Part shown: one piece after another, positions 42,683 through 64,000 of the stretch
How positions within the stretch are numbered: position 1 is the first letter of the stretch
Layout of the letters: each line of letters begins with the position of its first letter
Source: an uncultured Acidimicrobiaceae bacterium
GTDB taxonomy: Bacteria > Actinomycetota > Acidimicrobiia > Acidimicrobiales > SZUA-35
Direction: 5' to 3'
Assembly: GCA_947259095.1 (NCBI GenBank)
Contig: CAMYLA010000004.1
Span: forward strand, 62,001 to 126,000
Length of the DNA: 64,000 nt
The notes under the pieces: generated by a model
Databases searched by the model: none
The model's input: the letters and a program-made list of their open reading frames with translations, nothing else
Told to the model about the DNA's origin: nothing
Program-made: the position numbers and the translations under genes

Positions 42683-43672
42683 GTGAGTACGTCACCCGTT
42701 CGAGTAACCGTTACCGGCGCCGCCGGCCAGATCGGCTACAGCCTGCTGTTCCGCATCGCCGCCGGCGAGCTCCTGGGGCCCGATCAGCCGGTCATCCTCC
42801 AGATGTTGGAGATCACGCCGGCCCTGGGCGCCCTCGACGGTGTCGCCATGGAACTCGACGACTGTGCCTTCCCGTTGCTGGCCGGCATGGTGAAAACCGA
42901 CGATGCCGACACCGCCTTCGGCGATGCCCAGTACGCTCTGCTGGTCGGTGCCATGCCCCGGAAGCAGGGGATGGAGCGAGCCGACCTCTTGGAGGCGAAC
43001 GGTGGCATCTTCGGTCCCCAGGGCAAAGCCATCAACGATTCCGCCGCCTCCGACATCAAGGTCCTCGTGGTCGGCAATCCGGCCAACACCAACGCCCTGA
43101 TCGCAATGTCGGCCGCCCCCGACGTGGATCCCCGGCAGTTCAACGCCATGACCCGGCTCGACCACAACCGGGCCATGAGCCAGCTCGGGGCCAAGGTCGG
43201 CAAGCCGATCACCGACATCACCAAGATGACGATCTGGGGCAACCACTCGACCACCCAGTACCCCGATCTGTTCCACTGCGAGGTCGACGGTCAGAACGCG
43301 GCCACATTGGTGAACGACCAGGCATGGCTGGAGAACGAGTTCATCCCCACCGTTGCCAAGCGGGGCGCAGCCATCATCGAGGCCCGGGGTGCGTCGTCTG
43401 CGGCATCGGCGGCCAATGCGGCCATCGATCACATGCACGACTGGGCCCTCGGTACGCCCGAGGGGGACTGGGTGTCGATGTCGGTCCCGTCCGACGGCTC
43501 CTACGATGTGCCCGAGGGCATCATCTCCAGCTTCCCCTGCACCACCTCCGGCGGATCCTACAGCATCGTGCAGGGCCTCGAGATCGACGATTTCAGCCGC
43601 TCCAGGATCGATGCCTCGACCGCCGAACTGGCCGAGGAGCGGGACACGGTCAACGAGCTCGGTCTCATCTGA
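42683..43672 (+). CDS. mdh: Malate dehydrogenase
   Basis: The 329-residue NAD-dependent malate dehydrogenase is of the cytosolic-like type. Seen are the Rossmann motif '[20 protein letters not shown]', the substrate arginine loop '[15 protein letters not shown]', '[12 protein letters not shown]', '[13 protein letters not shown]' and the catalytic histidine in '[12 protein letters not shown]'. It works in the TCA cycle with succinyl-CoA synthetase and succinate dehydrogenase, also in this window. GTG 42683 has GGAG nine bases upstream; the frame extends 42 bases further without a better start. Confidence 0.95.
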
Positions 43673-57927: not shown

Positions 57928-59328
57928 GTGGATAGTCGACCTGAAACAATCGGTTCGCTTCGTCAGTCCGGCTGGGTTTCACGCTCGGTCAAGGACGAGA
58001 TGCGGCAGAACGCCATCCGGCGCATCCGCTCCGGAGAGGCGCTGTTTCCAGGTGTTCTGGGCTACGAGGACACCGTGCTGCCCCAGCTCGAGCATGCGGT
58101 GCTGGCCGGCCACGATGTGATCTTCCTCGGCGAGCGGGGCCAGGCCAAGACCCGCATGATCCGAACGCTCTCGGGACTGCTCGACGAGTACATGCCGATC
58201 ATCTCCGGCTCGGAGATCAACGATGATCCGTTCAACCCGATCTCCCGCTATGCGATCGACCTGGTCGAGGAGTTCGGCGACGAGACGGCCATCGGCTGGG
58301 TCCACCGCGACCTGCGGTTCGGCGAGAAGTTGGCCACCCCGGACACCTCGATCGCCGACCTGATCGGTGAGGTCGATCCGATCAAGGTGGCAGAGGGCCG
58401 ATACCTGTCCGATGAGCTCACCCTCCACTACGGGCTCGTCCCCCGAACCAACCGAGGCATTTTCGCCATCAACGAGTTGCCGGACCTGGCGGAGCGGATC
58501 CAGGTCGGGCTGCTGAACGTGTTGGAGGAGCGCGACGTCCAGATCCGGGGCTACAAGATCCGGCTGCCACTGGATGTGCTGCTGGTCGCATCGGCCAACC
58601 CGGAGGACTACACCAACCGAGGCCGGATGATCACCCCCCTGAAAGACAGGTTCGGGGCCCAGATCCGAACCCACTACCCGCTCGACGTTGAAACCGAGAT
58701 CGAGATCGCCCGTCAGGAGGCCCAACTGCCGAACGACGAGAACGTGATCGTTCCCGAGTTCATGGAGGAGCTGATCTCCACCTTCACCCACATGGCCCGC
58801 TCCAGCCCCCAGGTCAACCAGCGGTCCGGCGTGTCGGTCAGGCTGACCGTGGCCAACATGGAAACCCTGGTGGCGGCGGCCACCCGCCGGTCGTTGCGGC
58901 TCGGCGAGACCGAGATCGTGCCCCGGGTCAGCGACCTCGATTCCCTCATCTCCTCCACTGCGGGCAAGATCGAAATCGAATCGTTGGAGGAGGGCCGAGA
59001 CGGCGAGGTGATCGATCACCTCCTGCGGGGTGCGGTGCTGACCGTGTTCAAGGACCGTTTCTCCGGTGAAGGCGTCCGCCAGGTCGTCGATGCGTTCGAC
59101 GAGGATGTGACCGCCAGCGCCGGTGACGACCTGCCGGTGTCGGCCTACATGGACCTGCTGGAGAAGACCCCTGCTCTGGCCGCCCCGGTCGCCGAGCTGG
59201 TGGGCGACACCGGCTCCGACGGTGTCAAGGCATCGGCCATCGAGCTCCTGCTCGAGGGTCTGCACCTGTCAAAGCGGCTGAACAAGGATTCGGTCGGCGG
59301 ACGGGCCAGCTATCGGGCCAGAGCCTGA
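57928..59328 (+). CDS. MoxR/magnesium-chelatase-like AAA ATPase
   Basis: The 466-residue AAA+ ATPase is of the ChlI/MoxR type. Walker A is 'IFLGERGQAKTRMIRTLSG', with RGxAKT as in the magnesium chelatase I clade. Walker B is 'RGIFAINELPDLAERIQVGLLNVLEERDVQIRGY', followed by sensor 1 'LLVASANPEDYTNRGRMITPLKDRFGAQIRTHYP' and a helical lid. Such proteins usually act with a von Willebrand factor A partner to insert metals or remodel complexes, but no such gene follows here: the next gene is a diguanylate cyclase on the opposite strand. The GTG start at 57928 fits the -10 box. It is cytoplasmic; the client is unknown. Confidence 0.85.
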   Translation: MDSRPETIGSLRQSGWVSRSVKDEMRQNAIRRIRSGEALFPGVLGYEDTVLPQLEHAVLAGHDVIFLGERGQAKTRMIRTLSGLLDEYMPIISGSEINDDPFNPISRYAIDLVEEFGDETAIGWVHRDLRFGEKLATPDTSIADLIGEVDPIKVAEGRYLSDELTLHYGLVPRTNRGIFAINELPDLAERIQVGLLNVLEERDVQIRGYKIRLPLDVLLVASANPEDYTNRGRMITPLKDRFGAQIRTHYPLDVETEIEIARQEAQLPNDENVIVPEFMEELISTFTHMARSSPQVNQRSGVSVRLTVANMETLVAAATRRSLRLGETEIVPRVSDLDSLISSTAGKIEIESLEEGRDGEVIDHLLRGAVLTVFKDRFSGEGVRQVVDAFDEDVTASAGDDLPVSAYMDLLEKTPALAAPVAELVGDTGSDGVKASAIELLLEGLHLSKRLNKDSVGGRASYRARA

Positions 59329-59392
59329 GCCGACGGGAACCTCTGCCCCGGGCGTCTCCTGCCCGCCATGGCGCCGGTAACCCTCGGCGCGC

Positions 59393-60934
59393 TCACTCGG
59401 CGGTGAGGTTCACCGCATGACGATCGCCGCCGGACCGCTTCGCCTCGTACATGGCGGCGTCGGCGGCCCGAATCAGGTCCTTGACGTCCATGGTCTCGCC
59501 GTTGCGCCGAGCCGAGACGCCGAGCGAACAGGTCACCCGCTCATCGATGGTCGAGATCGCCCCGGTGATCCTGGTCGAGATGGCCCGGACGTCGTCGGCT
59601 GAGCCGATCTGCCCGGTGAAGACCACAAACTCGTCGCCACCGAGCCTGCTGACCAGATCCTCGGTCCGGAAGATGGTGCGAAGCTCGGCCGCCACGGCCC
59701 GCAGCACCTGGTCGCCCCGTTCGTGGCCTGCGGTGTCGTTGACCAGTTTGAACCCGTCGAGATCGATGAAGAACACCGTTGCCGGACCGTTGACCGGTGC
59801 ACGGCGGGCCGCCTCGACAAGGCCGTTGCGGTTGAGCAGCCCGGTCAGGGGGTCGGTGAGCGCCAGGGTTCTGGCATGGGCCAGCTCGAAGCGGGCGGTA
59901 TTGAGGTGCAGCCGGTTGCGGAGACGACGGATCGTGGCCCCGTAGGCGGCGACGGTGGCCAGAGATCCCACGATCCAGATCCAGAACTGGTCGAACAGGC
60001 CGGTCGGTGGGCCAAAGTCCGGATCGGCCCAGACCTCGATTCGCCATTGCAGCGAGGTGGTGGTGAGCTCGCGGACCGCTTTCAGCCCGGCCGACTCGGC
60101 GGCCGGGGCGCCGGGGCTGAGCCGGGCTGCCACCGGCTCGTCGATTCCGATCACGTACACCTCGACGCTGAGGCGGTCGAGATCCTGATCGGTCACCTTC
60201 CCGAGCAGGCCGCGGACGGTCTGGAAGTAGATGGCGTGGCCGATGAAGGTGTCGTCCTCGGTGGTGACCGCACCGACCAGGAAGGCCACGTAGTCCTCGT
60301 ACCCGGCATCGTCGCCGTCCAGTCGCTCGTCGGGGCCGATGAACGCGGTCAGGTCATCCGACGCCACGACGAACAGCTCGATGCCTCTCGTTTGCCCGTC
60401 ATCGGGCAGCAGTTGGCGTTGCAGAGCGGTCACGTCCAGGCCCAGGAGGGGGAGATCGAAGACCCGGGCCGGTCGGGCCGAGCGGGTGACCAGCAGCCGC
60501 TCGTCATCCGGGCTCGGCAGGACGGTCAAGGTCAGTTCATCGTTGCCGAGGCTGCGTTCGCGGTCCAGCAGGTCCTCGACCTCGTCGATGGCGACGAACT
60601 CGAGGAACAGGACGCCGGGATCGTTGCTGGGCGCCCCCACCACCTCCCTGGTGAAGAACGACTGGTACTCGTCGAGCGGGCCGGGGTGGGTGGCGCCGAT
60701 GAAGTTGATGCCGGATTGGAAGTCCTTGACCCTGGCGTCGACGGCGTTGACCAGGTCCTCCTGGACGTGGGCCGCCGCGGCCTCGAATTTCAGGTTCCGC
60801 TCCTGGCGGGCGTTCGACTGCTGCAGCAGGGCAACCACCGCAGTCAGGGTCAGCCCGCAGACCAGCACCGCAACCGAGACGCCTCGATTGAGTCCCTCCC
60901 CGGCTGGTGGCTCCTTGTTCTGGGCAATCCGCAC
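59393..60934 (-). CDS. CHASE-domain diguanylate cyclase (GGDEF)
   Basis: The 513-residue cyclic-di-GMP synthase has a first membrane helix ('VSVAVLVCGLTLTAVVALLQQ'). An extracytoplasmic CHASE-like sensor of about 270 residues follows ('DEYQSFFTREVVGAPSNDPGVLFLEFV', 'GHAIYFQTVRGLLG'), then a second helix ('FWIWIVGSLATVAAYGATI') and a GGDEF domain. The active site 'SRLGGDEFVVF' is intact, and the inhibitory site RxxD (RTED) lies five residues before it. CHASE domains bind small extracellular ligands. Cyclic-di-GMP could influence pili or adhesion, but no direct link to the Tad locus is visible. Start is GTG 60934. Confidence 0.9.
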   Translation of the reverse strand: MRIAQNKEPPAGEGLNRGVSVAVLVCGLTLTAVVALLQQSNARQERNLKFEAAAAHVQEDLVNAVDARVKDFQSGINFIGATHPGPLDEYQSFFTREVVGAPSNDPGVLFLEFVAIDEVEDLLDRERSLGNDELTLTVLPSPDDERLLVTRSARPARVFDLPLLGLDVTALQRQLLPDDGQTRGIELFVVASDDLTAFIGPDERLDGDDAGYEDYVAFLVGAVTTEDDTFIGHAIYFQTVRGLLGKVTDQDLDRLSVEVYVIGIDEPVAARLSPGAPAAESAGLKAVRELTTTSLQWRIEVWADPDFGPPTGLFDQFWIWIVGSLATVAAYGATIRRLRNRLHLNTARFELAHARTLALTDPLTGLLNRNGLVEAARRAPVNGPATVFFIDLDGFKLVNDTAGHERGDQVLRAVAAELRTIFRTEDLVSRLGGDEFVVFTGQIGSADDVRAISTRITGAISTIDERVTCSLGVSARRNGETMDVKDLIRAADAAMYEAKRSGGDRHAVNLTAE

Positions 60935-61082
60935 ATCGTCGGATCGGCATATCCGGGGCCCAGGTTTACCTCCGGCTCCCGCCGGTAGGCCCGACCGGCC
61001 AACACCACCGGACTTTCTCCGCCACTGCGGTCGGCCCTAGCCTCGGGGTGGCGATCGATCGCATCTCCGGAAAGGGAGCATC

Positions 61083-62186
61083 ATGGGAACAGCGGCCAGG
61101 GTGGTGGTTCTGCCGAAGGATCCGGCTCCGATGAGGCTCGAGGACGTCGAACTACCCGATCCCGGACCCCACCAGGTGGTGGTCAAGGAGTTCGCCAGCG
61201 GCATCTGTCACTCCCAGCTCCACACGATCCACGGTCGGCGCAACACCGACATCGTGCTCGGTCACGAGGCCACCGGTGAGGTGGTCGCGGTCGGTGACGA
61301 GGTGGACCACGTCGGTCTCGGCGATCGGGTGATCCTCACCTTCCAGCCCCGGAACCTGCGCGACACCGACCGCATGCCGTGGATGGCCGATCTCGAACTG
61401 GCCGGCGGCGACGTCGCAAAATCGGCGAACATCTTCACCTGGTCGACCCATACCATCGCCGACGACCAGTACCTGATCCCGCTCCCGCCCGGCACCCCGA
61501 CCGACGTGACCTCGATCGTCGGCTGTGCGGTGCTGACCGGCGCCGGTGCGGTACTGCGGGCCGCAGAGGTCCAACCTGGCCAGAGCGTCGCAGTCTGGGG
61601 TGTTGGCGGGGTCGGGCTCAATGCGGTGGCGGCGGCCAGGATGGCCGGCGCCGATCCGATCATCGCCGTCGACCTCGACGACGACAAACTGGCAAATGCC
61701 GAGCGGTTCGGGGCCACCCACACCGTGAATGCGACCCGGGACGATGCGGCCAAGCGGATCAGGGACCTCACCCCCGGACCGTCCGATGCCTTCGGGTTCC
61801 GGGGGGCGCCGATCGCCGGCGTCGATTTTGCGTTCGACGTCGTGGCCAATCAGCAGACTTTCACCGAGGCGTTCAACGCCACCAGAAACAGCCGCAATGC
61901 GGTCCACGGCGGTGGCACCACCGTGGTCGTCGGGGTGCCGACCGGTGGCGATTTCCAGCTTCCGGCCCTCAGTATGTTGATGAACGAGCGGCGGGTGATG
62001 GGCACCATCGGCGGGACCGCCATGCCAGAACAGGACATCCCGCGGTTCCTGGAGTGGTACCGCAACGGCGATCTCGACCTCGATGCCCTGGTGACCTCCC
62101 GGGTCGGGCTCGACGAGATCAACGAGGCCACCAAGCTGCTCGAGGACGGCAAGGTGCTCGGACGGACCATCATCGAGTTCGACTGA
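61083..62186 (+). CDS. Zinc-dependent alcohol dehydrogenase family (MDR), structural zinc lobe absent
   Basis: The 367-residue medium-chain dehydrogenase has a catalytic zinc site with Cys in 'SGICHSQLHTIHG' and the His-Glu pair in 'IVLGHEATGEVVAVGD'. The third ligand is plausibly in 'SIVGCAVLTGAG'. The NAD(P) fold has 'VAVWGVGGVGLNAVAAARMAGAD' and an Asp after the second strand, favouring NAD. The four-cysteine structural zinc lobe is missing (that loop reads 'FQPRNLRDTDRMPWMAD'). ATG 61083 has AAAGGGAG upstream. The DsbA-like candidate selenoprotein follows by 72 bases on the same strand, so they may be co-transcribed. Confidence 0.87.
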   Translation: MGTAARVVVLPKDPAPMRLEDVELPDPGPHQVVVKEFASGICHSQLHTIHGRRNTDIVLGHEATGEVVAVGDEVDHVGLGDRVILTFQPRNLRDTDRMPWMADLELAGGDVAKSANIFTWSTHTIADDQYLIPLPPGTPTDVTSIVGCAVLTGAGAVLRAAEVQPGQSVAVWGVGGVGLNAVAAARMAGADPIIAVDLDDDKLANAERFGATHTVNATRDDAAKRIRDLTPGPSDAFGFRGAPIAGVDFAFDVVANQQTFTEAFNATRNSRNAVHGGGTTVVVGVPTGGDFQLPALSMLMNERRVMGTIGGTAMPEQDIPRFLEWYRNGDLDLDALVTSRVGLDEINEATKLLEDGKVLGRTIIEFD

Positions 62187-62258
62187 ACGTCGCCCACGGG
62201 ATCGTGCCGGCAGCCCGATGTCCACCAACCACAACAAGCAAACGGAAAGGCCAACGCC

Positions 62259-62906
62259 ATGGAGCCTGTGAAACTCGAAGTCTGGTCGGACTATCTCTGA
62301 CCGTGGTGCTACGTCGGGACCGTGCGTCTCGAACAGGTCGTCGAGGAGTACGGCGATGACGTCGAGCTGATCTGGCGCAGCTTCATGCTGCGCCCGGAGC
62401 CCGAGGAGCGCTCGGCCGAGAAGTTCGCCGAGTACACCCGCTCCTGGGAACGACCGGCCTCAATGGAACCAACGGTGACGTTCCGAACCTGGTCGACCGA
62501 CAATGCTCCTCCCAGTCACAGCATGCCTTCGGCGGTGGCGGGCAAGGTGGCGGCCCGATTCGGCCCCGAGCGCTATCGAGCCTTCCATCGCCGGGCCATG
62601 GAGGCCTACTTCACCGAGAACCGCACCATCTCGGACCGGTCGGTCCTGCTCGACCTGGCCGAGGAGGCGGGCATCGACCGTGAGGCGTTCGATCAGCGGT
62701 GGCAGGAGGAGGGCGAGGCGCTGCTGGCCGAGGTGGTGGCCGAGCACAACGAGGCGGTCGGCGCCGGGATCAACGCCGTCCCGTCCCTGGTGGTCGGCGA
62801 GAAGTACCTGGTGGCCGGGGCGGTCGACGTGGCCGACTATCGCCGGGTCATCGACACCTACCGCTCCGAAACAGCCACCGAGCCCGGGCCCGACGCCGGT
62901 TCCTGA
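62259..62906 (+). CDS. DsbA/FrnE-family oxidoreductase with in-frame TGA at the active site (candidate selenoprotein)
   Basis: From ATG 62259 (GGAAAGG upstream) the frame reads 'MEPVKLEVWSDYL', then TGA 62298-62300, then 'PWCYVGTVRLEQVVEEYGDD' and continues without a stop to 62904-62906, 215 residues in all. The DsbA/FrnE family has WSDY.CPWC at this place, so TGA occupies exactly the first Cys of CxxC. The rest is a normal FrnE protein with its helical insert and the cis-Pro loop 'INAVPSLVVGEKYLVAGAV'. I infer selenocysteine (U-P-W-C). Alternatives are a point nonsense mutation or sequencing error, but chance placement on the catalytic codon is unlikely. No sel genes are in the window. Confidence 0.75.
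62311..62327 (+). promoter_or_regulatory. Putative bacterial SECIS hairpin downstream of the in-frame TGA
   Basis: ACGTCG pairs with CGTGCGT (six pairs including one GT, with one T bulged), closing the tetraloop GGAC. The loop starts 16 bases after the TGA, and its first two bases are G, which fits bacterial SECIS rules (apical loop about 16-37 bases downstream, G in the first two loop positions). A second hairpin, CTCGA/TCGAG at 62328-62345, has AGGTC in its loop, like the E. coli fdhF element, but is further from the TGA. Confidence 0.45.
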
Positions 62907-62981
62907 CCGCCTGGCGCGGCCGCTGACCCGCCCGCTGATCCCGACGTTGCCGGCCGGGGCGGTAGCGGCCTCCAGGCTCCT

Positions 62982-63001
62982 GGCCCCGGGTCGCCGGGGC
63001 C
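62982..63001. terminator. Bidirectional hairpin between the DsbA-like and F420-type genes
   Basis: GGCCCCGG-GTCG-CCGGGGCC is a perfect eight-base-pair stem with a tetraloop in the 98-base gap between two convergent genes. No T tract is present. It is the strongest hairpin in the right end of the window. Confidence 0.5.
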
Positions 63002-63004
63002 GGT

Positions 63005-63460
63005 TCAGCCGGCCAGGGGTTTCCGGTCGATGACCACGACCGGGATGGTTCGATCGGTCTGGGTCACGTAGTCGCCGAACCGGGGCATGGCGGCGATCCG
63101 CTGGTCCAGGAGCCTCGTCCGCTCCGGCTCGGGGGCCACCCTGGCGGTGGCCTCGAACCGCTCGGTGCCGACCTCGATCACCACCTCGGGGTTGGCCACC
63201 AGGTTGTGGTACCAGTCGGGGTGACGGTCGTCGCCGGCGCGCGAGGCGATCAACACGATGCGATCGCCATCGGTGGTGTAGGTCAGTGGTGACGTCCGCT
63301 CCTGCCCGGAGCGGGCCCCGATCGTGGTCAGCAGCACCATCGGGTTGCCCTCCCAGCGCCCGCCGCAGCGCCCACCGTTTGCCCGGAACTCGGGGATGAC
63401 CCCGCGGTTCAGTGTGAGCCACTGGTCGTCGGTCAACCTCGGTTGCGAATCGTCGGCCAT
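63005..63460 (-). CDS. F420-dependent nitroreductase-family (Ddn-like) protein
   Basis: The 151-residue split-barrel protein belongs to the deazaflavin-dependent nitroreductase family. It has 'GRWEGNPMVLLTTIGARSGQERTSPLTYTTDGDRIVLIASRAGDDRHPDWYHNLVANPEVVIEV', in which 'RSG..R..PL' and 'HP.WY.NL.ANP' are family hallmarks for binding F420. These enzymes reduce quinones or enones with F420H2 in actinobacteria. The ATG at 63460 is separated from the MOSC gene by two bases, so the two are co-transcribed. Confidence 0.88.
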   Translation of the reverse strand: MADDSQPRLTDDQWLTLNRGVIPEFRANGGRCGGRWEGNPMVLLTTIGARSGQERTSPLTYTTDGDRIVLIASRAGDDRHPDWYHNLVANPEVVIEVGTERFEATARVAPEPERTRLLDQRIAAMPRFGDYVTQTDRTIPVVVIDRKPLAG

Positions 63461-63462
63461 GA

Positions 63463-64000
63463 CTAGTGGACCACCACATCGTCACCGACGGTCAGCGTGC
63501 CGGTGTTGAGCACCACCGCACCGATCCCGAGGTGGTTGTCGTGGTCCCGGGCGATGGTCTTGAGCACCTCGAGATCGCGCTCGACGGCCGGCTGGTCACC
63601 GAGCGGCGGCTGGGGCCGGGTGGTCATCACGCAGCGGTCGATCTGTTTCAGGACGTCGAGGTCGACGCTGCCGATCTCGATCCGGTGACCGACCAGCTCG
63701 GCGTCGCCGGAACCGTCGAGGATCACGTTGGTCCGGAATCGCCGCCGATCCCAGGGCCCGAAGGCCTCGAGGCCGGCCAGCGAGATCCTGGTCTTGGTCG
63801 AGTCGTGGAACGAACCGGCCGGGCCGCTCCACTGGACCCAGCTGCCGGTGTCGGTCTCGTCGAGCTGGATCTCGTAGGTCCCGGCCGCCTCGGCCTCGGC
63901 TCGGCGCAACTCGACCGGCCGCCCGATCCAGGCCGACAAGGTGGCGTCATCGGTGGCCTCGGTCCCGTCCGGGAGGGTGATCGCCACCTCTCCGTCGTCG
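63463..64000 (-). CDS. MOSC domain protein (N-terminus beyond the window)
   Basis: The frame is open to the right edge ('DDGEVAITLPDGTEAT'), so the protein starts outside the window. At least 179 residues are seen. The N-terminal MOSC beta-barrel leads into a MOSC core with 'FGPWDRRRFRTNVIL', 'ELVGHRIEIGSVDLDVLKQIDRCVMTTRPQPPLG' and 'DHDNHLGIGAVVLNTGTLTVGDDV'. The Cys in 'DRCVMTT' is the conserved residue thought to carry sulfur for molybdenum cofactor-type chemistry. Related mARC-like proteins reduce N-hydroxylated compounds. Confidence 0.85.
   Translation of the reverse strand, partial: DDGEVAITLPDGTEATDDATLSAWIGRPVELRRAEAEAAGTYEIQLDETDTGSWVQWSGPAGSFHDSTKTRISLAGLEAFGPWDRRRFRTNVILDGSGDAELVGHRIEIGSVDLDVLKQIDRCVMTTRPQPPLGDQPAVERDLEVLKTIARDHDNHLGIGAVVLNTGTLTVGDDVVVH

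Follow-up and report, generated by a model that had tools for sequence, protein, structure and literature searches.

The window, by which we mean the whole analysed stretch of 64,000 nucleotides, lies on contig C4 of a genome of 6.39 Mb (229 contigs, 96.5% complete, 7.1% contamination) and carries on its forward strand a FrnE/DsbA-like reading frame of 215 codons, which extends from an ATG at 62259 to a TGA end stop at 62904-62906. The frame (62259-62906) contains a single internal stop, the TGA at 62298-62300, in the context WSDYL-*-PWC. This TGA, codon 14, occupies the place of the first Cys codon of the CPWC motif of FrnE and is the proposed selenocysteine (Sec) codon at the first position of a UPWC motif; read in this way, on the basis of the frame itself, its orthologues and the predicted fold, the gene would encode a Sec-containing protein of 215 residues. 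The second redox residue of the motif, Cys17 (62307-62309, forward strand), is the sole Cys of the protein, is invariant in 23/23 aligned sequences and would have the resolving role. Pro175 (62781-62783, forward strand) is likewise invariant in the 23-sequence alignment, with the strand 176-179 next to it in the predicted model, and is presumably the cis-proline that lies opposite the active site, which we take to be its usual role in the thioredoxin fold. The gene has a Zn-alcohol dehydrogenase upstream and an F420H2-dependent quinone reductase and MOSC genes downstream. These neighbours gave no functional clue, and none of the 25 most widespread gene clusters around 80 relatives and the window region 58001-64000, the cluster of the gene itself set aside, held a neighbour from the window.

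An earlier note on this DNA had described a 215-codon FrnE/DsbA frame with one in-frame TGA and had placed this TGA on the first Cys of a CxxC motif. Both descriptions were confirmed, the protein read through the TGA scoring 89.3 bits against the Pfam family DSBA (PF01323; cut-off, 25.6) and its WSDYL-*-PWC stretch aligning with the CPWC of FrnE. The best matches among PDB sequences were FrnE of D. radiodurans (E 2e-16, in two stretches) and then SCO1869. Modelling by AlphaFold2 with a 23-row alignment resulted in a pLDDT of 93.6, and the top five PDB fold matches of the model were all FrnE entries, with TM scores of 0.80-0.81 by query length; residue 14 was placed just ahead of a helix of residues 15-34. 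The protein is FrnE-like by sequence and by predicted fold. A mechanical list of open reading frames gives instead a frame of 194 codons starting from a GTG at 62322 (62322-62906), and such a plain reading starts the gene late and loses the active site. Although this list entry would be consistent with translation occurring only downstream of the TGA, to yield a protein without CxxC, we consider this very unlikely, since the protein would lose its first strand and, with it, the entire redox motif, the densest invariant run in 23/23 sequences (S10, D11, L13, site 14, P15, W16, C17 and V19).

The identity of the codon at the site was compared in two sets of relatives. In a search of 148 genomes, the own genome included, 78 had a match at E<=1e-10. 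The window frame and, from other genomes of the order, the 22 highest-ranking complete frames all (23/23) have a single internal stop, which is a TGA at the motif; a fragment in another genome (G012) also had TGA at the same site. Among the weaker matches (<=39% identity), the 12 that were read had CPWC in nine cases and TGA at the site in three. A separate genome collection yielded 195 relatives, and the best 80 of these had TGA in 70 cases, TGC in eight and TGT in two; the stop that follows lies 190 or more codons beyond the site. The two sets overlap, 17 of the 22 frames being identical to one of the 80 relatives over 300 nt. Judging from titles, 72 of the best 80 of the 195 relatives are Acidimicrobiales or other Actinomycetota, and in the named collection the protein has its closest relatives, at 74% and 70% identity, in records of uncultured Acidimicrobiales. 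The ten TGC/TGT forms are, also by title, two Actinomycetota and eight Myxococcota, delta-proteobacteria or Chloroflexi. A quick tree, made to see the direction of exchange between Cys and Sec, required three changes; its long branches meet, and the basal nodes of the clade are poorly supported. In viral contigs, 16 pattern matches were obtained, and no relative was detected by tblastn.

These counts bear on whether the TGA could have arisen by nonsense mutation or from an error in base calling, with the protein either not being made or having Cys at the site. A single base separates TGA from TGC and TGT, and the window is an assembly; nevertheless, there is hardly any chance that the frame is a damaged gene, because the same TGA is found in 23/23 frames and in 70/80 relatives, which come from many projects, and the rest have TGC or TGT. 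The earlier note had named TAA, TAG or other disabling mutations in close relatives as signs against a selenoprotein, and it had raised the question of whether Cys or TGA occupies the site in FrnE homologues. Neither TAA nor TAG was seen at the site in the 23 frames and the best 80 of the 195 relatives, no other internal stop was present in 23/23 frames, conservation extends over the remainder of the frame, with 25 invariant columns in the 23-sequence alignment, and the homologues have TGA or a Cys codon in the numbers given above. A reading of the TGA without selenium as another residue, such as Trp, by near-cognate read-through or under a reassigned code, might be suggested by the C that follows the UGA in 71/71 TGA forms, UGAC being a leaky stop context. 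It is, however, highly improbable, given that TGA is also the end codon of 32 of the 80 relatives (TAG, 34; TAA, 14), that the 10/80 relatives without TGA all have Cys, and that tRNA-Sec, selA and selB are present in the genome, as described below. Sec at residue 14, the reading that we prefer, agrees with the presence of an in-frame UGA at the position of a redox Cys of the homologues, by which bacterial selenoproteins are recognised.

A predicted bacterial SECIS hairpin follows on the forward strand at 62313-62333, as supported by covariation, folding and comparison with the Cys forms. In the window copy, the stem is formed by 62314-62320 with 62326-62332 and the loop is CGUGC at 62321-62325, and 62313 pairs with 62333 in some relatives. 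If numbering begins with the T of the TGA as 1, the two arms of the stem are positions 16-23 and 29-36 and the loop between them has five bases, the pair 16-36 being present in 48/71 TGA forms and absent in the window copy. The hairpin starts 12-13 bases past the UGA, and the distance from the UGA to the loop is 20 bases. Among the 71 TGA forms (70 distinct), 93.6% of the cells were paired and 29 cells were double-changed, neither value being reached in any of 500 shuffles, and versions of the hairpin slid along the sequence paired at 36-45%. In the ten Cys forms, on the other hand, 43.8% of the cells were paired, which was as high in 133/500 shuffles. By the number of stem pairs changed on both sides (2/8; at least as high in 493/500 shuffles) and by the number of further pair types (eight; 487/500), there was no excess over shuffles. 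Compensatory changes that cross codons were seen from A22-U30 to G22-C30 in 17 rows, by which Thr is changed to Ala in 16 and to Val in one, and from G21-C31 to C21-G31 in 14 rows, by which Leu is changed to Val. The minimum-energy fold of a 42-nt segment contained the hairpin in 57/71 TGA forms, the window included, and lacked it in the other 14, whereas it was contained in 0/10 Cys forms. This retention in the TGA forms and loss in the Cys forms also speaks against a nonsense mutation or sequencing error. For the window copy, the pair probabilities in the 42-nt segment were 0.90-0.91 for positions 18-23 with 29-34, and the minimum-energy fold of a 60-nt segment differed from the hairpin. The loop bases G25 and U26 were invariant in 71/71 TGA forms; this conservation alone proves little because both bases are fixed by the codon of the invariant Val22, and a Val codon is also present there in 5/10 Cys forms. 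Regarding the hairpin with a GG-starting loop that the earlier note had pointed out, the hairpin itself is real and kept in the TGA forms, but the loop of the window copy does not start with GG, G being its second base; GG-starting loops are found in 32/70 TGA relatives. The hairpin, having a small loop with a G, lies directly downstream of the UGA and is conserved as RNA, and its place and form fit the description of bacterial SECIS elements in Zhang et al, 2005 (PMC1088965).

A covariance model of the hairpin scored 62.5 bits at the window site and 14.3 bits at the next place within the window, and 35 matches at E<=10 were obtained in the own genome; the model contains the letters of the UPWC codons, and a match alone is hence no proof of RNA structure. 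The five best places after the window site were read, of which one was in an Rv2466c-like frame (L149, described below) and three had no TGA at the start. The fifth, L152, has TGA-PWC, with no convincing frame. As a side observation, two other TGA-interrupted frames of the window, at 43293 and 50659 on the reverse strand, pass a crude GC3 filter and have no redox motif at the TGA; the filter is insensitive, having missed the window's own TGA at 62298-62300.

The genes selA, selB, selC (tRNA-Sec) and selD, the search for which had been proposed in the earlier note, were all found in the genome with scores over the cut-offs. The tRNA-Sec is on contig C99 (64.8 bits; gathering cut-off, 47) and was also called as tRNA-SeC with the anticodon tca by ARAGORN. 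On contig C168, selA (404 bits; cut-off, 267.9) adjoins selB (275.1 bits; cut-off, 242.25). Two copies of selD, each having one in-frame TGA, are on contigs C27 and C83 (L066 and L067; 361.2 and 346.3 bits; cut-off, 125), with 71% DNA identity over 926 bases, and they may be two genes (paralogues), or one of them may come from a contaminant in a mixed bin. The GC content of the loci for the Sec machinery is 0.653-0.700 and that of the window is 0.683. The machinery and the FrnE-like gene are on different contigs of a bin with 7.1% contamination, and it is possible in principle that they come from different organisms, but this is unlikely, the pattern being repeated in relatives. Over its cut-off, selA was found in 24/24 genomes with TGA-FrnE (those of the 23 frames and of the G012 fragment), compared with 93/148 overall, resulting in a hypergeometric P of 4e-6, which ignores kinship. 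In a comparison with genomes having the Cys form, selA was found in 9/10 of these and in 4/4 having the TGA form. The idea that the Cys form occurs where the Sec genes have been lost was therefore rejected, and selA cannot separate Sec forms from Cys forms because it is present in 9/10 genomes of the latter.

Taken together, we estimate from the sequence comparisons a probability of about 95% that the gene is intact and that Sec is inserted at residue 14 to give a UPWC oxidoreductase. The Sec insertion that the earlier note had surmised is in line with the conservation of the TGA, the hairpin kept in the TGA forms and lost in the Cys forms, and the presence of the Sec machinery. It may be supposed that SelB carrying Sec-tRNA-Sec binds the hairpin after the UGA and that the ribosome then inserts Sec at residue 14. 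The product would be a FrnE/DsbA-like thiol oxidoreductase, presumably cytoplasmic, of which Sec is the attacking residue. The Sec14-Cys17 pair of the UPWC motif, located where the first helix of the thioredoxin fold begins, would exchange with disulfides, and Cys17 would resolve the mixed bond as a selenenylsulfide, after which an outside thiol would restore the enzyme. Such an outside thiol would be needed because the CX4C that FrnE of D. radiodurans has near its C-terminus is missing from the protein. The cell location, reaction direction, substrates and reductant assumed for the enzyme are proposals, and it could be that the Sec enzyme is an unusually strong reductant or an isomerase. Judging by the comparison, many Acidimicrobiales, most of them uncultured, use Sec in DsbA-type enzymes. 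Sec relatives that have the hairpin and Cys relatives that lack it could be paired directly to study the benefit of selenium to such an enzyme.

The second-best place of the hairpin model in the own genome (25.7 bits, on contig C22) belongs to a frame that reads MDIEFWVDPI-TGA-PWCWV (L149:1471-2082, which is 69064-69675 on the forward strand of contig C22 of the own genome, G000). This candidate for a Sec Rv2466c-like protein, having an in-frame TGA at UPWC followed by a hairpin, scored 131.2 bits (cut-off, 27) against the Pfam family Rv2466c-like, mycothiol-dependent nitroreductase (PF22234) and matched four PDB sequences at E values of 8e-38 to 3e-36, one of which is named Rv2466c. Rv2466c-like matches at E<=1e-10 were found in 112/148 genomes, and TGA was present at the site in 30/30 loci fetched, the own one included. 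In the genomes of these loci, selA was over its cut-off in 29/30, the remaining one (G034) having a partial match only. Matches without a stop were also present, some at 50-58% identity and one, in the own genome (contig C16), at 40%, and these look like Cys forms. The hairpin folds in 30/30 Rv2466c-like loci (26 distinct), centred one base further on and with GUU in the loop in 28/30, and has hardly any sequence variation. Among the 24 genomes with TGA-FrnE, 12 are represented in the 30 TGA Rv2466c-like loci. In genome G009 (contig C1, about 69370-70646, reverse strand; L173), the two genes share a strand and the end of the Rv2466c-like frame is five bases ahead of the FrnE match, an arrangement as in an operon; pairing of the two genes was not found in the loci L068-L147. 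A third, distant DSBA-type group with WSDYL-TGA-PWC was found in three genomes of the order (L060, L061 and L062, in G127, G136 and G096); the window protein shares 29% identity with L060 and 27% with L061, both of which score over the DSBA cut-off; the hairpins of this group were folded singly.

The Sec Rv2466c-like form is apparently a second UPWC selenoprotein candidate of the genome and new to the literature searched, in which no Sec form of Rv2466c was found by the titles and abstract openings listed on mycothiol or Rv2466c with selenium, the coverage being one that leaves most subscription journals outside. For Rv2466c of M. tuberculosis, the first Cys is the nucleophile, and mycothiol mixed disulfides are reduced (PMC8280269). 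Mycothiol synthesis is possible in the own genome, judging from an MshC-like match (L184, contig C1:62970-64037; 423.5 bits, next 299.5, cut-off 485.1) and an MshA-like match (L186, contig C34:13789-14964; 393 bits, next 89.5, cut-off 462.5), both of which stand well clear of the next matches and below the curated cut-offs. We tentatively suggest, at somewhat less than even odds, that Acidimicrobiales run a selenium branch of redox chemistry based on a low-molecular-weight thiol, probably mycothiol, with at least two DsbA-type UPWC enzymes in which Sec attacks and which have similar SECIS elements, and that the Sec Rv2466c family is an undescribed selenoprotein. If the link holds, the Sec Rv2466c form would tie selenium to mycothiol chemistry.

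Among known proteins, FrnE of D. radiodurans (PDB 5cnw and others) is alike in that its CPWC aligns with the UPWC of the window protein, and it differs, at 25% identity in the structural alignment, in having Cys where the window protein would have Sec and in having a C-terminal CX4C, which is absent from the window protein with its one Cys. FrnE proteins are described as predicted cytoplasmic oxidoreductases of the DsbA family; for FrnE of D. radiodurans, a role as disulfide reductase with regeneration through the C-terminal CX4C is proposed, and some FrnE proteins are without CX4C (PMC8945050). Rv2466c (PF22234), a mycothiol-dependent reductase, shares the DsbA type and the CPWC motif with the window protein but represents another subfamily: the window protein has 19% identity to the Sec Rv2466c-like form of its own genome and, among the four Pfam families that it matched at E<=0.001, had no match to PF22234. 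The Rcas_1661 (seleno)lipoprotein family NF041057 is also thioredoxin-like and described with Sec members, and membership of the window protein was rejected (36.8 bits; cut-off, 190).

A search for selenoprotein literature on Acidimicrobi found none about selenoproteins, as far as titles and abstract openings indicate. The group COG2761 is, we assume, that of FrnE. DsbA-like proteins with Sec, which the earlier note had not described as known, have been reported repeatedly: a predicted "DsbA-like" UXXC selenoprotein with nine sequences, assigned to COG2761, from the Sargasso Sea (Zhang et al, 2005; PMC1088965); DsbA 1 with 63 sequences, commoner in marine samples, as well as DsbA 2 and 3, in the GOS study of 2008 (PMC2398784); 45 DsbA-like selenoproteins in 41 organisms in a survey of >5,200 organisms (PMC5029168); two DsbA-like Sec cases in Asgard archaea (PMC11227280); and a DsbA-like Sec family in reviews of 2022 and 2026 (PMC9312934 and PMC13188914), with "DsbA-like protein form 1" in the latter. 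The window gene is like the DsbA-like UxxC selenoproteins of the 2005 and GOS studies in its PF01323 assignment, in the proposed Sec as the first residue of UxxC and in the SECIS-type hairpin, which closely follows the UGA and has a G in its small loop. It differs in that the gene is here tied to one order and to the Sec genes of that order and in that the hairpin has been measured against Cys relatives, the likeness being one to the published description. The Sec DsbA-like UxxC kind is thus already known, and the window gene is a further member of it, repeated within one order.
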